NCBI GenBank assembly: GCA_024650095.1
Contig: JANKMV010000038.1
Coordinates: 1 to 11,187, forward strand
Source: Bacillota bacterium
GTDB taxonomy: Bacteria > Bacillota > Dethiobacteria > Dethiobacterales > Dethiobacteraceae
Length of the DNA: 11,187 nucleotides
Direction of reading: 5' to 3'
This document shows, one piece after another, positions 1 through 9,345 of this stretch; position 1 is the stretch's first letter; each line of letters opens with the position of its first letter. Position numbers and translations under genes: made by a program. The notes beneath the pieces were generated by a model, which did not search any database, was not told the DNA's origin, and saw nothing but the letters and a program-made list of their open reading frames with translations.

Positions 1-54
1 CAGGAGGGTCAGGAGGGTCAGGAGGGTCAGGAGGGTCAGGAGGGTCAGGAGGGT
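1..54. repeat. 9-bp tandem repeat, six copies, coding for Pro-Pro-Asp
   Basis: Six perfect, contiguous copies of CAGGAGGGT (read on the plus strand) reach the left window edge and may continue beyond it. On the minus strand they are in frame with the PilW-like gene and encode Asp-Pro-Pro units. The period is three codons, so gain or loss of copies would change linker length without breaking the frame. Confidence 0.95.
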
Positions 55-607
55 CCTCTACAAGAGCGCCACTGTATGCAAAATCTACGGAATCAGAATA
101 CATAAGGGCGTCATCTCCCGCACTAATAATAGCTTGGTCGGGATTAATCTTTAGATTCGGCAATAAAACTTCAGTCGCCAAGGTATAGTCTATGCCAGTT
201 AGACTCACTGTTAGTGATTCACTGGTGCCACTATAGTCTGCAGCTGATATCAATTCGCCAATTACAAAACGGTCAAAACTAGTACCATTTCCCTGTTCAT
301 GGTACAGTCTACCGTCATGAATATAAAAATAATTAAAGTTGTAATCCCAATCATTTGGTAAACTTGCCGGACTTGTTGGCTTGTCCACGATGGATAATTT
401 TGTGGCAAAACGGACTTGGTCTACAAGATAATCGGAAGCTAAACGAATATCACTTTGCTCGCTAAATTTACTGTACCCTTGAGAGTACGTATTGTTACCA
501 AAACCAAAAACCATAAATGCCGCCCCTAGCACCATGCTTAAAATAGCCAACGTTATCATCAGTTCTATTAATGTAATGCCATTATTATCTCTCATTTTAA
601 TCGTCAT
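1..607 (-). CDS. PilW-like type IV prepilin with (Pro-Pro-Asp)n linker, 3' end outside window
   Basis: This is a minor type IV prepilin. 202 codons are visible and the frame is still open at the window edge. The ATG at 605-607 follows an AGAAGGTG ribosome site inside the gap after the upstream prepilin gene. The leader is short (MTIKMRDNNG) and is cleaved after Gly10. Mature residues ITLIE carry the Glu at +5 that prepilins need, followed by a hydrophobic N-terminal helix (ELMITLAILSMVLGAAFMVF). A globular part of about 150 residues follows, and then at about residue 185 the protein enters six DPP units encoded by 9-bp DNA repeats. The rightward PilW-like protein (3797-4684) shares the layout and segments such as a helix ending in SMVLG/GMVLG, the HEQG/HQQG stretch and EVLLPN, so the two are paralogues. 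By analogy a C-terminal domain should follow the linker beyond the window. It is third in a leftward operon. The role as a pilus-tip subunit is inferred from the family. Confidence 0.88.
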   Translation of the reverse strand, partial: MTIKMRDNNGITLIELMITLAILSMVLGAAFMVFGFGNNTYSQGYSKFSEQSDIRLASDYLVDQVRFATKLSIVDKPTSPASLPNDWDYNFNYFYIHDGRLYHEQGNGTSFDRFVIGELISAADYSGTSESLTVSLTGIDYTLATEVLLPNLKINPDQAIISAGDDALMYSDSVDFAYSGALVEDPPDPPDPPDPPDPPDPP

Positions 608-620
608 ACAGACACCTTCT

Positions 621-995
621 TTACGGAATAATCGTAGATAGGGTAACATGCTTTTGTCCACCGTTATAGAAGACAACAACTGTGACCTTGTTATTGAGGC
701 GGCCCGCAACATTTACCGTACTGAAACCGTACTGCGCCGAGTTACCCGAAAAAAGATGTAGATCTGAATAATCTACTACACTGGCACTGGCAGCGGCACC
801 ATTATTATATATTGTATCGATTATTTCCTGTGCATGCTTCATGGCACTTGTTTTGTTGCCCATGGACACAATCTGAATATACCCACTGGAAAAGGCATTA
901 ATAAAAGACACAGTGATAATCGCCAGGATGACCATAGCAACCAATACTTCAACTAAAGTAAACCCTTTATTGTTTATTTTTAAATTAATTTTCAT
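621..995 (-). CDS. PilV-like type IV prepilin (minor pilin)
   Basis: A 124-residue prepilin. The leader MKINLKINNKG is cleaved after Gly11 by a prepilin peptidase. The mature protein starts FTLVEV with Glu at +5 and continues as a hydrophobic helix (to about residue 34) that would anchor the subunit in the membrane and later in the pilus core. The remaining 90 residues are a small globular domain rich in beta-strand-like segments, with the stretch AQEIID shared with the rightward PilV-like protein (AQELID). The ATG at 993-995 has an AAGGA site about 8 bases upstream; an ATG slightly further upstream is followed at once by a stop. It lies 31 bp after the PilX-like gene and 13 bp before the PilW-like gene, so the three form one operon. 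It is the size of PilV/GspI-type minor pseudopilins; the exact subclass is inferred. Confidence 0.88.
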   Translation of the reverse strand: MKINLKINNKGFTLVEVLVAMVILAIITVSFINAFSSGYIQIVSMGNKTSAMKHAQEIIDTIYNNGAAASASVVDYSDLHLFSGNSAQYGFSTVNVAGRLNNKVTVVVFYNGGQKHVTLSTIIP

Positions 996-1026
996 TACAT
1001 CAGTCCTTACTTAAATAGCGTACGTA

Positions 1027-2079
1027 CTAATTCCCTTCACTCCAAAACAGTGGTTGGTACTGCGTTTCAAAAGCTTCTGTAGATGAATCACCGATATAGG
1101 TGATCGTAACTTTTCCACCGTTAAAGTGAAGTTCCTTTGCTGTAATGGAGCCACTAACATAGATATTACCATTACCGCCCCCATTTAATCTAACACGTGC
1201 ATTTGGTGCATATATGAAACCAACCATATCTATATCTGCGTTTCCACCTATCTCCATCTCACTTTCGCCTGTGTAATAGATGTAAACTTCTGTATTTGCA
1301 TCTGCAGTAATACCGGAATTAAGTTTAAACGAATCTTCGACCAACAAGTGTATTTCTCCGGGACCTTCAAAAACTATATTTTGTCCACTTTGCTTAATAA
1401 ATGGCGTTTTTATAAAAACAACGTTTTCCTCAGTATATTCATCTATGCTGATCGTTATAGCGCTCTCAATAGGTTCTATTTCCTCGGTAAATAGTTCAGT
1501 TTTAATTTCTGGGAAAATATAATTTGCATTATATAAAATTTCATGATGCGTAGGGACGAAGGTAATCGTACCAGGATTATGGCCTTCTTCTGATACAATA
1601 TTCGTTGATACATTTCCTCCATATACTTTTGTCTCTGCTGGCCCCAAGTATAAATATTCGTCACCAAAAAGTGCATGCGGGAAGGCACTCTTGCCTTTTC
1701 CCACAGTTAGCGAAATTGTTTCTGTAATACCATTAACTTCCCCGGTGGACACGATCTTGAGTTCGCGTTGGTTACCATTAACGTCCTCCACCCTTACCAG
1801 AAATTCATTTCCATCGATATCACCGGTAATACTAGGTGTATTAATCAGTGTAGTAATATTAGCTGTGCTCTGGTCTACCAAAATAGCAGCAGTAACCGCC
1901 TCTATGCCCGCACGCGCAACATAATGAGCTTGCGTGCTTCTTTCTTGACGAACTGCGTGATTTGTCTCAGCCAAACTGATACTAATTAAGGCAGCACTTA
2001 ATATCGTAAAGACCAACATAATGACGATCACCCATAATAATGCTGCACCATCATCTTTCTGTATTTTACTATAGTTCAC
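1027..2079 (-). CDS. PilX-like pilus-tip protein with beta-rich C-terminal domain
   Basis: A 350-residue protein, first gene of the leftward pilin operon. It starts with GTG at 2077-2079, with a G-rich (GGGGGT) ribosome site about 8 bases upstream and no other usable start before the membrane helix. The N-terminus KDDG is followed by a hydrophobic helix (about residues 12-36) and the charged segment ending HYVARAGIEA, typical of PilX-type N-terminal regions. Mature position +5 is Trp, not Glu, a feature also known in GspK-type tip pseudopilins. Residues about 70-125 are strand-rich with the motif STGEVNGITE. The C-terminal half (about 235-330) has alternating beta segments rich in Gly and Asn and includes IYAPNARV, resembling the beta-rich domain of other Firmicutes PilX-like proteins. 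The rightward gene 2343-3455 is a clear paralogue, including a similar YQ..LW end. Role in a pilus-tip initiation complex is inferred from the family. Confidence 0.82.
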   Translation of the reverse strand: MNYSKIQKDDGAALLWVIVIMLVFTILSAALISISLAETNHAVRQERSTQAHYVARAGIEAVTAAILVDQSTANITTLINTPSITGDIDGNEFLVRVEDVNGNQRELKIVSTGEVNGITETISLTVGKGKSAFPHALFGDEYLYLGPAETKVYGGNVSTNIVSEEGHNPGTITFVPTHHEILYNANYIFPEIKTELFTEEIEPIESAITISIDEYTEENVVFIKTPFIKQSGQNIVFEGPGEIHLLVEDSFKLNSGITADANTEVYIYYTGESEMEIGGNADIDMVGFIYAPNARVRLNGGGNGNIYVSGSITAKELHFNGGKVTITYIGDSSTEAFETQYQPLFWSEGN

Positions 2080-2178
2080 GTTAATACCCCCAATATATTA
2101 AAATCTAAATATCTCGCCAATGAGAAATCATCCCGATTGTAAGTCCTTTAGAGTTTATACTTACGTCTTATAATAGTG

Positions 2179-2208
2179 GTTATACCAGACAAAGGCTCCT
2201 TTAGACAA
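2179..2208 (-). promoter_or_regulatory. Predicted sigma-A promoter of the leftward pilin operon
   Basis: Read on the minus strand: TTGTCT (-35, 2203-2208), an 18-bp spacer, and TATAAC (-10, 2179-2184). Transcription would start near 2172 and give a leader of about 90 nt before the GTG at 2079. The match is moderate (-35 4 of 6, -10 5 of 6). An inverted repeat sits in the spacer. Confidence 0.45.
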
Positions 2209-2267
2209 TTGAATGCTTGATTTTGGCATAATTCGGTTATTTTAACTGTATATTAAGAATAATTTGA

Positions 2268-2296
2268 TTGATAATTAGATGTGTATCCGATATAAT
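2268..2296 (+). promoter_or_regulatory. Predicted sigma-A promoter of the rightward pilin operon
   Basis: TTGATA (2268-2273), exactly 17 bp of spacer, then a perfect TATAAT (2291-2296). Expected start is near 2303, about 40 nt before the ATG at 2343. This is one of the two best sigma-A promoters in the window. Confidence 0.75.
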
Positions 2297-2342
2297 TTAT
2301 GTGATGAATGGAAAGAAAATACAGTAACTGGAGGTACATGCT

Positions 2343-3455
2343 ATGTCCCATGGAAATGAAAAAGGATTAGCTATGCCCATTGTATTAATTATAATGTTTG
2401 TGCTAACGCTCCTAGGTTCCGCGTTGTGGCAATATAGCGTTGCCGACACCATGCAGGTTTCGCGAGACGAACATAGAATGCAGGCATTATATGTTGCACG
2501 TTCTGGAGCTGATGCCATCGCCGAAAAAATTATAGACTATCCCCAGCAAATTGGTGCATTTTGGGGGCAATCTACCGATGAGCCAGTTAAGTTTGGACCA
2601 GGTGAATTTTCTTTAGAAATTACAGGTAGTGACTTTGATAGTGAGAATATTCCAGCACGGGTTGCCATTAAATCTACCGGTGAAGTGGCAGGAATATCCG
2701 AAATAGTAACCTTAAATTTAGCCCGTACGACAGGAACACAAGGCGAAGTTGTTTATGGTAATGTCATTACCCTCTCTGGTGAGGCCAATAATGATAATAA
2801 TGATAACAAAGGAATCTTTGAAGGACCTGTTCATTACGGAACTGAAAATGGGTGGCAAACCAGTGATAGCTGGCTAGATGAAGACTATGGTCCTGCACTG
2901 CTTGTTCCAAGCTCCTACCCTGACGCAGTGTTTCCTGGCGATGAATTTACTCCGCTTTTCAACGGAGATGGTATTATTAAAAAAGAAACGGCTACTATTA
3001 CTCAGGATAGCCAAGGTAGCTTAATCGAATTGAATAACAAACACCAAAAGGTAAATGTTCAAATGGGTTTAGATGCCAAATTCGAAAGACATGTGAAAGT
3101 GGATAGGATAAATATCAATGGTGGTAGCATTGTTTTAGAGGGTAAAGGTCATCTATATTTATATGTAGATGAAGTAGAGGCAACGGGTAACTTTATCAAT
3201 ACATCGGAACCTGACGCATTCATTACCATTTGTGTCAACCCGGGTGGTAGCTTTTCATTTTCGGGTGACACCACCTATAATGGCGCCATTTATGGTCCAT
3301 CGGCAACCATTGATGTGGGCGGAAATACTACGTTATTTGGTTGGATTATCTCAGATAAACTGGTAGGTGGCAATTCAACCAAGATTACGTATAATGTAAA
3401 CCATGGTTCAGACGGTCTCTCAATAGTAATGTATCAGCGCCGCTTATGGCAATGA
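2343..3455 (+). CDS. PilX-like pilus-tip protein, paralogue of 1027-2079
   Basis: A 370-residue protein, first gene of the rightward pilin operon. The ATG at 2343 has a TGGAGG site 8 bases upstream; an ATG at 2338 is out of frame and soon stops. After the short leader MSHGNEKG comes a hydrophobic helix (about residues 9-30), then the charged stretch ending ALYVARSGADA, matching HYVARAGIEA in the leftward protein. Position +5 after Gly8 is Ile instead of Glu. Around residues 110-130 STGEVAGISE again matches the paralogue (STGEVNGITE). The C-terminal part (about 255-355) is Gly/Thr/Asn-rich and beta-strand-like, with IYGPSATI at the place of IYAPNARV, and the protein ends YQRRLWQ. It is likely a GspK/PilX-type tip subunit of a type IV pilus; what the large domain binds is unknown. 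Its stop lies 17 bp before the preferred start of the next gene. Confidence 0.85.
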   Translation: MSHGNEKGLAMPIVLIIMFVLTLLGSALWQYSVADTMQVSRDEHRMQALYVARSGADAIAEKIIDYPQQIGAFWGQSTDEPVKFGPGEFSLEITGSDFDSENIPARVAIKSTGEVAGISEIVTLNLARTTGTQGEVVYGNVITLSGEANNDNNDNKGIFEGPVHYGTENGWQTSDSWLDEDYGPALLVPSSYPDAVFPGDEFTPLFNGDGIIKKETATITQDSQGSLIELNNKHQKVNVQMGLDAKFERHVKVDRININGGSIVLEGKGHLYLYVDEVEATGNFINTSEPDAFITICVNPGGSFSFSGDTTYNGAIYGPSATIDVGGNTTLFGWIISDKLVGGNSTKITYNVNHGSDGLSIVMYQRRLWQ

Positions 3456-3472
3456 GGAAGGTGATTATTTTC

Positions 3473-3784
3473 ATGAAACAAAATCAAGGGTTTTTTCTCA
3501 TTGAACTCATCGTGGCCAGCATGATTTTGCTTATTCTTGTATTGGCCTTTACATCACTTTTAACCGGTAGCTTTACTGGCATCTTTCGTGCTGGTCGTAA
3601 AAGTCAAGATTTGTACTACGCACAAGAACTAATTGATAAGGCAATATTAGATGGGACCACGAGTGAGCAAGAACTGAAGATAACAATTAATGGGACACTA
3701 CATACAGTTTTGGGCGAAAAAGTCATCGTCGGAGAAGATGAAGGGCTAGATGTCACAATTACAACCTTTTTGCCAAAAAGGTAA
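3473..3784 (+). CDS. PilV-like type IV prepilin (minor pilin)
   Basis: A prepilin of 103 residues from the preferred ATG at 3473. An in-frame ATG at 3446 would overlap the end of the PilX-like gene, but the GAGGAAGG site at 3454-3461 fits 3473 and gives the compact leader MKQNQG, typical of class IVa prepilins. Cleavage after Gly6 leaves FFLIEL with Glu at +5, followed by a hydrophobic helix to about residue 30. The segment AQELIDKAILDG matches AQEIIDTIYNNG in the leftward PilV-like protein. The remaining domain is very short (about 70 residues), with two or three beta-strand-like stretches, and ends TITTFLPKR. It is the middle gene of the rightward operon, 12 bp before the start of the PilW-like gene. 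Expected to sit in the pilus tip between the PilX-like and PilW-like partners; this is inference from PilV/GspI-type families. Confidence 0.85.
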   Translation: MKQNQGFFLIELIVASMILLILVLAFTSLLTGSFTGIFRAGRKSQDLYYAQELIDKAILDGTTSEQELKITINGTLHTVLGEKVIVGEDEGLDVTITTFLPKR

Positions 3785-3796
3785 AGGATGATTAAA

Positions 3797-4684
3797 ATGG
3801 GTTTACCAAAGTGTGAGTATCAAGCTACTAATCGATTGATCAAAACTGAAAAAGGCCTCACTGTAGTAGAACTGGTTATCGCGTTAGCTCTACTCGGCAT
3901 GGTGCTTGGACTAGGATATATGTTTTATGCTTTTGGTACAACTACCTTCGCAGCCGGTGAAACGCAATCTAACGTCCAACAAAGTGTTCGTATTGCAGCC
4001 AATATGATAAGTAATGAAGTACGCTATGCCGAAACTGCAGAGATTCTAGATTCGTTAGCAGAAGATACTTTTCCCGACGATGATTATACGTATATTTATG
4101 GAGATGGACATGCGCTCCTACTTCACCAACAAGGTGAAGTTACACCAATTCGATTCTTTGGCGGGATGGCGGATGATGGAGATGTAATAATTACATTTAA
4201 GCCTTCCTCCACCAATAGCAAGTTGCTTGATTTTAAAATTGTTGGAACTAATAAAAAGGGAACTCCTCAAGAAAAAGAGTATATCATAGACTACGAAGTA
4301 CTACTGCCCAATATATCGTCCATTACGATTAATACAGACGATAATAGTGGCTCCATTATCCGCTACTCTACCCCAAAACCTCCAGAACCCACTGTACAGA
4401 ATATTAGTATAGTGGAGGATGATACGAACCCCCTTATAGCTAACATTACAATTTACACAAAATATTTACTGGGGACAGTGGATGTTACTGCTACTATTTG
4501 GCAGCCCGTTGATGGTGATTTTATCAAAATTAAGGATATTTCAGGATTAAAAATCTATAATAACGAAGCCAATTTTAGTATCGACTTTGTTGATTATGGT
4601 TCATATAGAATTGAGTTTACGATCCTCGGAATAGAGAACCCACCCAGTTTAAATTATGTAATTATTGAAGAAGAAATCCCTTAA
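3797..4684 (+). CDS. PilW-like type IV prepilin with proline linker and extra C-terminal domain
   Basis: A 295-residue prepilin from the ATG at 3797. An in-frame ATG at 3788 lies directly on the AAAGGA site (3783-3788), so 3797, 8 bases downstream of it, is the better start. The leader is long for the family (20 residues, ending KTEKG), followed by LTVVEL with Glu at +5 and a hydrophobic helix (to about residue 45). A globular part runs to about residue 190, containing EVLLPNISSI, which matches EVLLPNLKI in the leftward PilW-like protein. Then come the short linker PKPPEP (about 193-198) and a final domain of about 95 residues made of alternating beta-like stretches, possibly an immunoglobulin-like sandwich, that ordinary PilW/GspJ proteins lack. 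The linker sits at nearly the same residue as the (PPD)n tract of the paralogue. The end domain may be displayed at the pilus tip and act in binding; this is inference. It is the last gene of the operon, followed by a strong terminator. Confidence 0.85.
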   Translation: MGLPKCEYQATNRLIKTEKGLTVVELVIALALLGMVLGLGYMFYAFGTTTFAAGETQSNVQQSVRIAANMISNEVRYAETAEILDSLAEDTFPDDDYTYIYGDGHALLLHQQGEVTPIRFFGGMADDGDVIITFKPSSTNSKLLDFKIVGTNKKGTPQEKEYIIDYEVLLPNISSITINTDDNSGSIIRYSTPKPPEPTVQNISIVEDDTNPLIANITIYTKYLLGTVDVTATIWQPVDGDFIKIKDISGLKIYNNEANFSIDFVDYGSYRIEFTILGIENPPSLNYVIIEEEIP

Positions 4685-4752
4685 TAAAATCGCATACGCT
4701 GATATCAATTTGTCAAGTTACATTTACTATTTGAAATACGACAATACGGTTA

Positions 4753-4792
4753 AAAAAGATACTCCTGCAGGTTTTTGCAGGAGTATCTTTTT
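4753..4792. terminator. Perfect 17-bp stem terminator, probably bidirectional
   Basis: The arms at 4753-4769 and 4776-4792 are fully complementary, with a 6-base loop (GGTTTT). The stem has A residues at its 5' foot and T residues at its 3' foot, so a U-tract follows it on either strand. It ends the rightward pilin operon 69 bp after the PilW-like stop. Confidence 0.93.
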
Positions 4793-5731: not shown

Positions 5732-5944
5732 GTAAACGCCATTGCTCCCGGTGTGTTTGTCAGTGAAATGACCGAAGGCTTTTTCGGAGAAGTTACCGAT
5801 GAAGCTGCAGGCAGAACGCCCATGGGCCGAATCGGCAAGGAAGGCGAATTAAACGGTGCGCTTATCTATTTTGCTTCCGATGCTTCAAGCTATACCACAG
5901 GTCAGACTCTCGCTGTCGATGGCGGCTGGACCGCCCTGCTATAG
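5732..5944 (+). pseudogene. C-terminal remnant of a short-chain dehydrogenase/reductase
   Basis: The conceptual protein from 5732 reads VNAIAPGVFVSEMTEGFF and ends with SYTTGQTLAVDGGW-TALL and a stop at 5942-5944. These are the hallmark last 70 residues of classical SDR oxidoreductases (FabG or gluconate dehydrogenase type): the N-[AV]-I-[AS]-P-G strand, GRIGKEGEL, and the TGQ.L.VDGG end. The NAD(P)-binding TGxxxGxG, the catalytic Ser and the YxxxK motif are all missing; a complete SDR is about 250 residues. Upstream the frame is open back to about 5633, but its translation does not look like SDR sequence. A GTG at 5753 could start a 63-residue peptide, but no ribosome site or promoter is evident. 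It is most likely a decaying gene fragment left by a deletion or rearrangement. Confidence 0.85.
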
Positions 5945-6061: not shown

Positions 6062-8248
6062 TTATTGTGAAGTTACGCTTTCTCCAGCTATTTTGCCAGA
6101 AACAATAATGTCTGAAATTGCATTACCGCCTAGACGGTTACCCGCATGGAAACCACCTGTTACTTCACCAGCAGCATAGAGCCCTTCAATAATTTCCCCG
6201 TCACTGTTTAAGACACGACGAGCTGTATCAATTACTAATCCACCCATCGTATGGTGAGTTGACGGAGCCAAATAGCGAACCGATAACATCCCTTCCTCGT
6301 TGAAGGTGCCATCCTCATTATAATTACCGATTTCTCTAGTTGCAGTAGACTTTGGAACATCGAGTTTATCGAGGGCTCCACTGCGTACGGCTTCATCATA
6401 TTCAATTATCGTGTTTTTAATAGTGTCTGTATCAATCTCTAACATTTCAGCAGCTTCTTCAAGTGTACAGAAATATTCCCTACCTGGACGATTATTCTCG
6501 CTGGTCCTGTCTCCTCCATTACTCAGTTGAATGAAGAGGCCATTTTCTCCGCCATGATCAAACGCGCCTTGAGCAAGAACATCACGTTCAGCACTTTCAT
6601 TTACAAATCTTTTTCCTGCATTTTCAGTACCAGCTGGGCTTATGAAAATAACGGTTTCCCCAGTACCACCGGCAAGATGACCTGTATTCGCCCATCCTAT
6701 AGGCATTAATTGCGTATAGCCCATACCCGTTGTAACGGCACCTACAGCCTCAGCCATAGTAATTCCTTCACCCATAGCAAGGGAACGATTTGTTGTTTTA
6801 ATGTTTGGACTTAAATTTTTCCAATACTCGTTAGTATTCATAACCATATCTATATTGTGTGCATAGCCACCGGTTGCAAGGATTACACCTAATTCTGCAG
6901 TTATCTCTACTTCTGTCCCATCAAACTGAACAGCTTTTACCCCAGTGATTCTGCCATTAGAATCAGTAACAAGATCAGTTGCTTTTGTTCTGTACATTAC
7001 AGTATTTTTATCATTTGCACTTAGTACAGTATTTAATGGAACAGCAAAATATGTTCCCCACCTGTCTTCATGTACTTCACCATTTACTTCTGCACCGGCC
7101 CAACGGATAATTCTTTGCCACATGCAGCCAATCAAAGTGCCTGCTCCGCTCTCATTGTTGAATAATGAGCCTTGATCCTCAAACCACACTTTTGTTGGTT
7201 CAGCTCCATGACACATGGAATATACTAAATCATAGTCTGAATATATCCATTCAGTTTTATCGTTATTTAAACGAAGCCCACCATAGTAAGTTTGGAAAAT
7301 ATGCAACTCTACAGTACTAAATACTGTTAATTCAGATTCTGTTGCACCGGCAGCCAATTTAGGCTCTGCCCATTTTAGATAATCACTAATTTGCTCTTTT
7401 AGTTTTTTCAAGGTTTCTAGGTATTCTGGGTGAACACCTCTATCAGGCAAATTATAGTCACTTACCGTTTCAACAGCATCAGAATCTGTAATTGCTTCAT
7501 CAAATGACTTTTCACTCCAATTGAGTATTGTACGCAATGTCTCAATACGACCCTGATCAGATTTTATTTTATCATATGTTTCACCTGTAGGCTCATAAAA
7601 ACCGGTAGTAGCGTCAGGATCATTTACATCCCAAACCAATGCCTCTATAACACCTTGCATAGAGCAACCTGAAACGAGAGTATTACCACCAAGATTCGTT
7701 TCCTTTTCAATAATAACAACTGTAGCTCCATTCTGAGCGGCGGCTGCTGCGGCAGTCATACCGGCACCACCACCACCAACAACAACAACATCAAATGTAT
7801 CCGTTATTTTTTCTCCAGCTGTAAGTTCAAATGGCACTCTACCAGTACGCAGGTTATCTATATCGCATCCTGCCTGAAGAGCAGCATCTTCAACTGCGCG
7901 CAATATAGCGTTGCTAGTTAGAGTAGCACCAGAAACCAAATCTATGCCTGTTGATGTATGGCTTTTTATGTAATCAAACATTATGTCAAATGCTGGTGTG
8001 CTGACATGTGCGGTTTCATTAGAACTTATTAATTCAATATCTGTAATTGCATCTTCTGAGAAGGTTACATCAAGAACAATTTCACCATTAAATCCCACAC
8101 CTTTACCTGTTAACGTACCGGGAGTAAAAGAAATTTCTGGTTGTTCCCCGCCCTGGTTTTCTTCGTTGCTGCATCCAATAAGAGATAACACTAAAATGAA
8201 AATTAACACCAAAACCAAAACTCTTTTTGAACTGGGCATCTTAAACAC
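6062..8248 (-). CDS. Lipoprotein FMN/FAD reductase of the fumarate/urocanate reductase family
   Basis: A 728-residue flavoprotein predicted to be anchored outside the membrane and to reduce an unsaturated carboxylate. The start is GTG at 8248, 9 bases after AAGGAGG; the ATG at 8239 is too far from that site. A signal peptide with lipobox SLIGC gives lipidated Cys26. Residues about 40-132 are an FMN_bind domain with DLVSGATLTS (SGAT at 106-109), the motif whose Thr receives covalent FMN from ApbE-type transferases. The FAD-binding domain begins VVVVGGGGAG (158-163). Near the C-terminus, HHTMGG (His665-His666), GNRLGG (Arg705) and AERD (Arg555) match substrate-binding and proton-relay positions of flavocytochrome c fumarate reductase. 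Where fumarate reductases have QxHP, this protein has QLMP (Met515), so the substrate is probably not fumarate. No haem motif (CxxCH) is present, so electrons likely arrive through the bound FMN. It has its own promoter and no partner gene beside it. Confidence 0.88.
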   Translation of the reverse strand: MFKMPSSKRVLVLVLIFILVLSLIGCSNEENQGGEQPEISFTPGTLTGKGVGFNGEIVLDVTFSEDAITDIELISSNETAHVSTPAFDIMFDYIKSHTSTGIDLVSGATLTSNAILRAVEDAALQAGCDIDNLRTGRVPFELTAGEKITDTFDVVVVGGGGAGMTAAAAAAQNGATVVIIEKETNLGGNTLVSGCSMQGVIEALVWDVNDPDATTGFYEPTGETYDKIKSDQGRIETLRTILNWSEKSFDEAITDSDAVETVSDYNLPDRGVHPEYLETLKKLKEQISDYLKWAEPKLAAGATESELTVFSTVELHIFQTYYGGLRLNNDKTEWIYSDYDLVYSMCHGAEPTKVWFEDQGSLFNNESGAGTLIGCMWQRIIRWAGAEVNGEVHEDRWGTYFAVPLNTVLSANDKNTVMYRTKATDLVTDSNGRITGVKAVQFDGTEVEITAELGVILATGGYAHNIDMVMNTNEYWKNLSPNIKTTNRSLAMGEGITMAEAVGAVTTGMGYTQLMPIGWANTGHLAGGTGETVIFISPAGTENAGKRFVNESAERDVLAQGAFDHGGENGLFIQLSNGGDRTSENNRPGREYFCTLEEAAEMLEIDTDTIKNTIIEYDEAVRSGALDKLDVPKSTATREIGNYNEDGTFNEEGMLSVRYLAPSTHHTMGGLVIDTARRVLNSDGEIIEGLYAAGEVTGGFHAGNRLGGNAISDIIVSGKIAGESVTSQ

Positions 8249-8287
8249 CTGAATCAACCTCCTTCTCAAAATACAATCCCTGTTAAT

Positions 8288-8316
8288 AGAATAGCAAATA
8301 AAGTTATTTCTGTCAA
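8288..8316 (-). promoter_or_regulatory. Strong sigma-A promoter of the reductase gene
   Basis: On the minus strand: a perfect TTGACA (-35, 8311-8316), exactly 17 bp of spacer, then TATTCT (-10, 8288-8293). The start would be near 8281, giving a leader of about 33 nt before the GTG at 8248. A palindrome covers the -35 box. Confidence 0.78.
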
Positions 8317-8328
8317 TCATTTGATTGA
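8313..8328. promoter_or_regulatory. Palindrome over the -35 box, possible operator
   Basis: TCAATCA-TT-TGATTGA has 7-base arms that are perfect complements with a 2-base centre. It overlaps four bases of the TTGACA box of the reductase promoter, a position where a bound dimer would block polymerase. The regulator is unknown. Confidence 0.45.
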
Positions 8329-8428
8329 GCGGGAATAATAGGTCATAGGTGATTTTCACCACCGAAACCAGTCCTACTACATAGGGAGGCTTTTTATGCC
8401 CAATAATAACCAGAACTAAAAATAGGCA

Positions 8429-8451
8429 CAAAAAAACCCCTAAAAAGAGGT
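8429..8451 (-). terminator. Terminator after the antitoxin-nuclease fusion gene, possible attenuator
   Basis: Read leftward: ACCTCT (8451-8446), loop TTTT, AGGGGT (8441-8436), running into seven T residues (8436-8430). The stem has six pairs, one of them G-U. The 5' arm can also pair with AAGAGG just upstream (8479-8474), which would prevent the terminator. Confidence 0.6.
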
Positions 8452-8577
8452 GTTGTGCAAATCTTGCCACCCTCCTCTTGGTCAAAGGGGTAATCACATT
8501 TCCACAACAGATGTTAAAGCCGCTGTGATGCCAAATCATCATATTTGTGGCTTGAGAAGTCTATCTCTCACCTATTC

Positions 8578-9345
8578 TTAAAACAATTCGCTAAACAACT
8601 CTTTCACGTCTATAGATAACCCTTTAAATATAAGTGAGCGTACAATATCTCCTTTTTCAAATGTCTTAATATTGTCAATATCATGGTTAGCGAAGCTATA
8701 TAAAATAATCGTTTCCTTCTTTGCATCAATAATCCAGTATTCCTTGACGGTCGATAACATATAGGAATTTAACTTATCAATCATATCCTTGCTTCGAGTA
8801 CTATCCGATAGTATTTCGACCACCAAATCAGGTGTACCCATATAGCGACCCTTCTCGGTAATATTGTTTTCAAGGTCGCAGGCGATTAGAATATCGGGTT
8901 GGACAACATCCGGTGTTTTTATCTCTTTCTTTTTTAAATGGACATCAAAAGGAGCGAGAAACACCCGGCATTTTTTACCTTTCAAATATTCGTTAAAGAC
9001 AAGATGCATTCGTCCAAGTATCTCCTGATGGAAAATGTTTGGAGACGCTAATAAATAGATTTCACCATTGATCAATTCCATACGGATTGTGCTTTTTTCA
9101 CTAATTTCCAAAAACTCTTCATACGATACTTTTTTCCCGCCATATTGATAGTCTAATGCTTTTTCCCGTACGGCAAAATACTGCTCAATATCTGTTACGT
9201 ATGGTGTAAACCTGGCAATTTTATTGCCATTTTTCGTTATGACCACATCATTTTGCTGTTCAACGTAGTCTAAATATTTGCCTAAATTTTGTTTAAGCTC
9301 AGTCGCAGTGACTACAAGACCTTCTTTAAAATTTATTGTACTCAT
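8578..9345 (-). CDS. Phd/YefM-type antitoxin domain fused to a Uma2-type (DUF820) nuclease domain
   Basis: A 255-residue two-domain protein. Residues about 9-50 (VTATELKQNLGKYLDYVEQ, then DVVITKNGNKIARFTPY) match the Phd/YefM antitoxin fold, which normally binds DNA and neutralises a toxin. Residues about 75-245 match Uma2/DUF820 proteins of the PD-(D/E)XK nuclease-like fold: MELINGEIY, VVQPDILIACD (Asp151), GTPDLVVEILS (Glu177) and KEYWIID. The acidic catalytic positions appear intact. The start ATG at 9343-9345 follows GGAGGTGATC, a near-perfect match to the 16S rRNA tail, with 7 bases between GGAGG and the ATG. A stand-alone toxin gene is not adjacent, so this is not a standard two-gene toxin-antitoxin pair. 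The N-terminal domain may target or autoregulate the nuclease; the biological role of Uma2 proteins is poorly known. Confidence 0.82.
   Translation of the reverse strand: MSTINFKEGLVVTATELKQNLGKYLDYVEQQNDVVITKNGNKIARFTPYVTDIEQYFAVREKALDYQYGGKKVSYEEFLEISEKSTIRMELINGEIYLLASPNIFHQEILGRMHLVFNEYLKGKKCRVFLAPFDVHLKKKEIKTPDVVQPDILIACDLENNITEKGRYMGTPDLVVEILSDSTRSKDMIDKLNSYMLSTVKEYWIIDAKKETIILYSFANHDIDNIKTFEKGDIVRSLIFKGLSIDVKELFSELF

Follow-up and report, generated by a model that had tools for sequence, protein, structure and literature searches.

Minor-pilin operons that diverge from a single control region pose two questions: how such a pair arose, and what a cell would do with two sets. We addressed both in a window of 11,187 nucleotides that makes up an entire contig (C321) in the genome bin, 2.66 Mb in 556 contigs, of a Bacillota bacterium (family Dethiobacteraceae). 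An initial annotation, made from the sequence alone, had described two PilX-, PilV- and PilW-like cassettes diverging from one 263-bp region and had read them as a duplication with inversion. The layout is as described: three open frames lie on either side of 2080–2342, in the order X-V-W on each side, and the two divergent pilin operons occupy positions 1–4684.

Architecture of the locus

The features of the locus are as follows.

1..54, minus strand: linker of six 9-bp units coding for Pro-Pro-Asp, at the contig edge (read from the sequence)
2..607, minus strand: W_L, PilW/GspJ-like minor pilin with Glu5, incomplete (N_methyl, 1.8e-8)
621..995, minus strand: V_L, PilV/GspI-like minor pilin with Glu5 (N_methyl, 3.6e-9)
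1027..2079, minus strand: X_L, PilX/GspK-like pilin without Glu5; DUF7305 beta-solenoid, Pfam match at 1096–1392 (PF23981, 6.2e-10, above cut-off)
2080..2342, no strand: divergent intergenic region of 263 bp with promoter-like sites on both strands
2343..3455, plus strand: X_R, PilX/GspK-like pilin without Glu5; DUF7305 beta-solenoid, Pfam match at 3102–3395 (PF23981, 9.4e-10, above cut-off)
3446..3784, plus strand: V_R, PilV/GspI-like minor pilin with Glu5; likely start 3473
3788..4684, plus strand: W_R, PilW/GspJ-like minor pilin with Glu5 and about 100 extra C-terminal residues
4753..4792, plus strand: hairpin and U run downstream of W_R (-25.9 kcal/mol, z -7.2)

A prepilin motif with Glu at residue 5 is present in all four V and W proteins, and the same residue is Trp in X_L and Ile in X_R. 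The N_methyl model is matched above its cut-off (21.2 bits) by W_L and V_L and just below it by V_R (18.5 bits) and W_R (20.2 bits in the Pfam scan of the window, 24 bits in the genome search). Within each set the genes are tightly spaced or overlap, and purine-rich stretches lie, by eye, ahead of most starts; AAGAAGGTG precedes the ATG of W_L, and such a stretch upstream of 3473 is the reason for placing the likely start of V_R there. Neither set looks decayed (a silent, decayed cassette would, for the annotation, have been fatal to its reading), and the frames are open throughout except where that of W_L reaches the contig edge within a Pro-Asp-Pro repeat. This repeat pattern, searched across the assembly with up to two mismatches, gave no other occurrence and no second contig. 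The hairpin at 4753–4792 probably marks the end of the right operon; a terminator consensus scan did not flag it. The Pfam scan of the ten window proteins listed no PilY1-type family.

The letters K, I and J are used here in the sense of 'works like' rather than of membership in type II secretion families, because the curated cut-offs for GspK, GspI and GspJ are not reached: the NCBIfam GspK model gives 21 bits for X_L and 11.1 for X_R against a cut-off of 130, gspI gives 31.5 bits for V_L against 44.35, and GspJ returned no row for the W proteins. Other sub-cut-off matches to curated models are of the same kind, with ComGE (2.2e-9), gspI (1.9e-7) and PilV (2.1e-7) for V_L, and ComGE (9.3e-6) and PilV (1.1e-4) for V_R.

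In the control region, a good promoter-like site lies on the plus strand for the right set (2268–2296, 11 of 12 matches) and a weak one on the minus strand for the left (2120–2092, 9 of 12); across 1950–2450 five such sites were observed and 3.2 are expected by chance. Mirror operators were considered and dropped, inverted repeats of 10–12 bases having been judged unremarkable in AT-rich DNA (a judgement made with no shuffle control). Any regulation from the shared 263 bp, including a choice between tips, would be a proposal drawn from the layout.

The head-to-head arrangement is known from this one metagenome contig only. Protein searches with the window pilins returned few relatives (5, 1 and 7 rows, counting those of the window itself), each of the two window X proteins coming from a single source contig, and a contig-level genome scan found one distant locus, in Mesobacillus (39% over 51 residues). 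This raises the alternative of a false metagenome join of two contigs, which we regard as very improbable, as the 263 bp contain no join-prone repeat (the matches there span only 9–12 bases) and composition matches the bin. Mis-binning was likewise rejected. The window's GC (0.398) lies inside the 0.392–0.465 range of 11 readable sampled contigs, and its tetranucleotide correlation is 0.78 overall and 0.60 for 1–4700 (sampled contigs, 0.51–0.86). At its right end lies a transporter with 77% identity to that of family member G008, on which ground we assign the window to the family.

Origin of the two sets

The three protein pairs, whose alignment the annotation had proposed, are homologous: BLASTP gives 24% identity over 381 columns for X (E 4e-15), 30% over 66 for V (1e-11) and 29% over 204 for W (5e-20). 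At the level of sequence, the left and right sets are therefore paralogous with 24–30% identity. The matching segments to which the annotation pointed divide into two kinds. AQE(I/L)ID and EVLLPN are indeed complete only in the two window rows (among 20 V rows and 21 W rows, respectively), whereas YVAR(A/S)G, with Y, A, R and G invariant across 12 X proteins, is a family-wide signature and no mark of recent duplication. Residues private to the left and right sets, counted without G004b, core rows and P rows, show no overall excess in the alignments, with nine in X (rank 9 of 78 pairs), one in V and two in W (each rank 35 of 78). A recent duplication was rejected on DNA comparison of the cassettes, which yielded at best a single match, of 88 bases at 70% (E 6e-7).

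Had the right set arisen from the left by inverted copying, trees should show the two as sisters, and we tested this prediction. The approximately unbiased (AU) test rejects a left-plus-right clade for X (p 0.005, 0.003 and 0.017 with 26, 39 and 27 rows), for V (0.030 and 0.035) and for the concatenation (0.031 with 20 rows, 0.003 with 27); it does not reject one for W (0.432 and 0.488). Nor is the shared gene order the sign of duplication for which it had been taken, given that X-V-W is found in 23 of 23 accessory sets in the trees (sets selected for possessing all three genes), the six core sets being V-W-X.

The right set appears nearest to that of G008, which belongs to another genus of the same family; the two join with support of 96/92 in the 27-row concatenated tree and 81/76 in the 20-row one, and in the 39-row X tree only inside a 10-row group at 85/92. 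The left set has a long branch and low surrounding support, and its nearest row shifts with gene and row set. In W trees that row, by path, is the right set; W may have a history of its own, or its alignment may be too short to tell. Across a phylum sample of 398 genomes, the best foreign matches of X_L lie outside the class (G177, 78.4 bits; G323, 74.5 bits) and score above its match to X_R, at only 36.5 bits. The left set thus looks like an older or separately acquired lineage.

The trees differ in composition. Concatenated trees lack G005, in which no V was found, and G014, which has X only. The 39-row X tree leaves out G005 and the X protein of G073, cut by a contig end, and adds 11 X proteins from class loci and three from the protein search. 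G011 and core056 were omitted as long branches from the 27-row trees (concatenated and X) and the later V and W tests. Twelve phylum stretches were fetched, and nine sets from eight of them entered the 27-row trees; the phylum sets left out were those of G245, which nearly duplicates that of G180, of G423, where W is missing, of G343, whose X is in two pieces, and of G386, whose X is too short.

Duplication with inversion does not fit as an account of origin: X, V and the concatenation each reject a clade of the two sets, the right set lies nearest G008 and the gene order is family-wide. By the tree comparison that the annotation had itself proposed, its claim falls for X and V, and W leaves both options. 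A version in which one set was duplicated and inverted in situ and then diverged fast could draw on the same order, the paired homology, the adjacency, the neutral W trees and the two short segments complete only in the window's sets. We hold it to be improbable, on account of the same rejections, the lack of excess private residues, and the recovery of genuine local pairs as such: the tandem-pair controls G004a/b and G427a/b each came together at 100/100 in the 27-row concatenated tree (X alone does not resolve the G427 pair). The sisterhood tests, the few private residues and the better foreign matches of X_L instead suggest old paralogues, or the gain of one set, with an adjacency that would be secondary or long preserved.

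Relatives of the X-V-W set

With a profile built from 12 X proteins, mostly from genomes then searched, an accessory X was found at E <= 1e-60 in 8 of 19 family genomes and an X match at E <= 1e-15 in 27 of 97 class genomes. Two distinct X genes at the latter threshold were read from the rows of four of the 97: the window's genome (divergent), G004 (tandem), and G049 and G071 (on separate contigs). Among the phylum stretches, G427 has two tandem sets. Six of the seven other family genomes with the set have pilA, pilC or a pilN-O-P operon within about 4 kb, the pilA-like gene near the set of G008 being a weak match; the set of the seventh lies on a 3-kb contig.

The two tandem X-V-W sets of G004 (L076, 1425–8942) lie downstream of pilA, encode W proteins of more than 600 residues and are mutual nearest relatives, which in sequence terms makes them a true local duplication. 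Long W or V proteins are common in the class, reaching 613 (W) and 575 (V) residues, and two of the ten that were scanned gave InlB-type repeats above cut-off. At six loci the extra large domain is on V, not W (L080, 4964–6439; L085, 7175–8902; L162, 1467–2930; L193, 7457–8995; L194, 6242–7780; L197, 4038–5546). G323 has a second X gene, split across two frames, behind its X-V-W set (L192, 8113–9479), and a protein at L112 (8686–10116) contains an X-like solenoid region (E 1.8e-9 to X_R) and looks, by eye, secreted rather than pilin-like. At L074 (1–1874), pilA and an adjoining Wzy_C (O-antigen ligase) gene have third-position GC of 0.26–0.28 against 0.50 in the divergent pilC; the pilin may have been swapped in together with a glycosylation ligase of its own.

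Predicted structure of the X proteins

Thermus thermophilus ComZ is a pilin with a large inserted beta-solenoid that acts in DNA uptake. It was the best whole-protein Foldseek match (PDB 6qvi) for the models of both X_L (5.9e-6) and X_R (4.9e-5), at 9–13% identity and a whole-chain rmsd of 12–19 Å, so that only the domain arrangement agrees. That arrangement, a pilin fold with an inserted beta-solenoid, is present in both models, which also match ice-binding proteins in fold, and X_L and X_R are accordingly predicted to be pilins with an inserted solenoid like that of ice-binding proteins. Mean pLDDT is 71 for X_R and 65 for X_L; the same nine sequences underlie both models, and the stretches between pilin sheet and solenoid are poorly modelled. 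Searched against PDB sequences, the X profile retrieved no ComZ chain at E <= 1 and one chance hit (E 0.52).

A literature search for DUF7305 found no papers. This domain of unknown function occurs on minor pilins across the phylum, and the models suggest that it forms a solenoid of ice-binding type at the pilus tip.

One pilus machine and a third minor-pilin set

The annotation had proposed searching for the genes of a pilus machine, and one Pil machine was found, on contigs other than the window's. PilN, PilO, a protein in the PilP position (with a RodZ_C domain), PilB, PilT and PilD are on non-window contigs (C536), and C163 has PilA with PilC. A third, core minor-pilin set, V-W-X-GspH, likewise lies outside the window, on C536. 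C157 holds a Tad cluster, beyond which the genome (93% complete) yielded one PilB, one PilT and one PilC. A secretin search of the genome found none; the same search was positive in 6 of 14 control genomes. We take both window sets to be accessory because the machine already has a core set, and the three sets probably share that machine. This fits the annotation's picture of paralogous minor-pilin sets with divergent end domains on one machine.

It is unlikely that one of the sets serves another machine, whether a second Pil- or Com-like one absent from the bin or the Tad system. At 93% completeness and 556 contigs a second machine could be missing, C524 carries a second prepilin peptidase, and in G011 the set adjoins a second PilC/N/O/P operon; against this stand the single PilB, PilT and PilC beyond the Tad cluster.

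Proposed alternative tips for one pilus

In known systems, minor pilins initiate the filament and remain at the tip with a Glu5-less subunit as their cap, and they may carry grafted adhesive modules (as described in PMC10191384 and PMC9934059). We propose, with a probability of about 0.64, that the two operons encode alternative tip-initiation complexes of K-I-J type with different tip receptors. Each would supply a three-pilin complex in which X is the GspK/PilX-like cap without Glu5, V is GspI/PilV-like and W is GspJ/PilW-like. The single machine found (PilB, PilT, PilC, PilN, PilO and PilD) would start and cap type IV pili with the window sets, beside the core V-W-X-GspH. By analogy, X would be cap and receptor in one, its beta-solenoid inserted in the pilin fold and shown at the tip; V and W would link X to the shaft, and W would add its C-terminal extension at the tip. 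The receptors on a pilus would therefore depend on which set, left or right, had begun it, since the X solenoid and the W extension differ by set. The two sets would sit on separate branches of a single family found across the phylum, with the left one gained separately or retained from an old duplication and adjoining the right without being its recent copy. Location at the tip and alternative use would follow from the analogy with known pili, and binding of distinct ligands, as well as control from the shared 263 bp, may be supposed.

Each operon probably builds a different tip for the same pilus. That both sets are instead co-expressed and mixed into one six-pilin tip has, to our mind, a small chance of being right. 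Both operons are open and diverge from one region, and in models of Streptococcus sanguinis tips two modular pilins lie next to each other (as reported in PMC9934059); against a mixed tip, a K-I-J-like trio is present in each set, and of the class genomes with X at E <= 1e-15, 23 of 27 show a single X gene at that threshold.

Alternative tips would make the locus a variant of the known theme of multiple minor-pilin sets, in an unusual layout. According to PMC7541494, Myxococcus xanthus combines three minor-pilin/PilY1 clusters with a single major pilin and a single machine; either of two of these clusters suffices by itself, and the authors suggest that the cluster tips have different properties. 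The window's genome shares the combination of several sets and a single machine (three sets, in an incomplete assembly). As PMC7541494 describes them, the M. xanthus clusters each comprise FimU, PilV, PilW, PilX and PilY1 and their machine has a secretin, whereas the window sets consist of X, V and W only, X itself bears the extra domain, and no secretin was found in the genome. The GspK-GspI-GspJ and PilHIJK systems (as presented in PMC10191384) similarly unite a Glu5-less cap with I-like and J-like pilins in one operon; the window sets differ from them in having no H subunit and a DUF7305 solenoid on X. S. sanguinis PilABC is likewise a three-pilin tip operon with one Glu5-less pilin and grafted modules that are adhesive there, but the modules are lectins and the Glu5-less subunit is the small PilA, by the account in PMC9934059.

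A wider reading is that the phylum swaps whole three-pilin cassettes capped by a DUF7305 solenoid receptor, each gain bringing a new binding specificity, and that this locus is a divergent pair and a possible tip-selection switch; we consider this tentative and somewhat doubtful. As a natural two-tip system, the locus, together with the tandem sets elsewhere, would allow a test of whether binding by a pilus is determined by its tip set. On an ordinary view, it is another instance of multiple minor-pilin sets. Its interest, which we rate as moderate, lies in the predicted ComZ-like solenoid of both caps and in the unusual layout.

Other features of the window

Downstream of the pilin operons, 5753–5944 on the plus strand matches only the end of the adh_short_C2 profile (2.2e-11) and encodes a C-terminal piece of a short-chain dehydrogenase, probably from a decayed gene because the wider stretch has in-frame stops. 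On the minus strand, 6062–8542 encodes a flavoprotein of the fumarate-reductase type with FMN-binding and FAD-binding domains, whose listed start is probably well upstream of the true one, and 8578–9345 encodes a fusion of an N-terminus of Phd/YefM antitoxin type with a Uma2 domain (putative nuclease).
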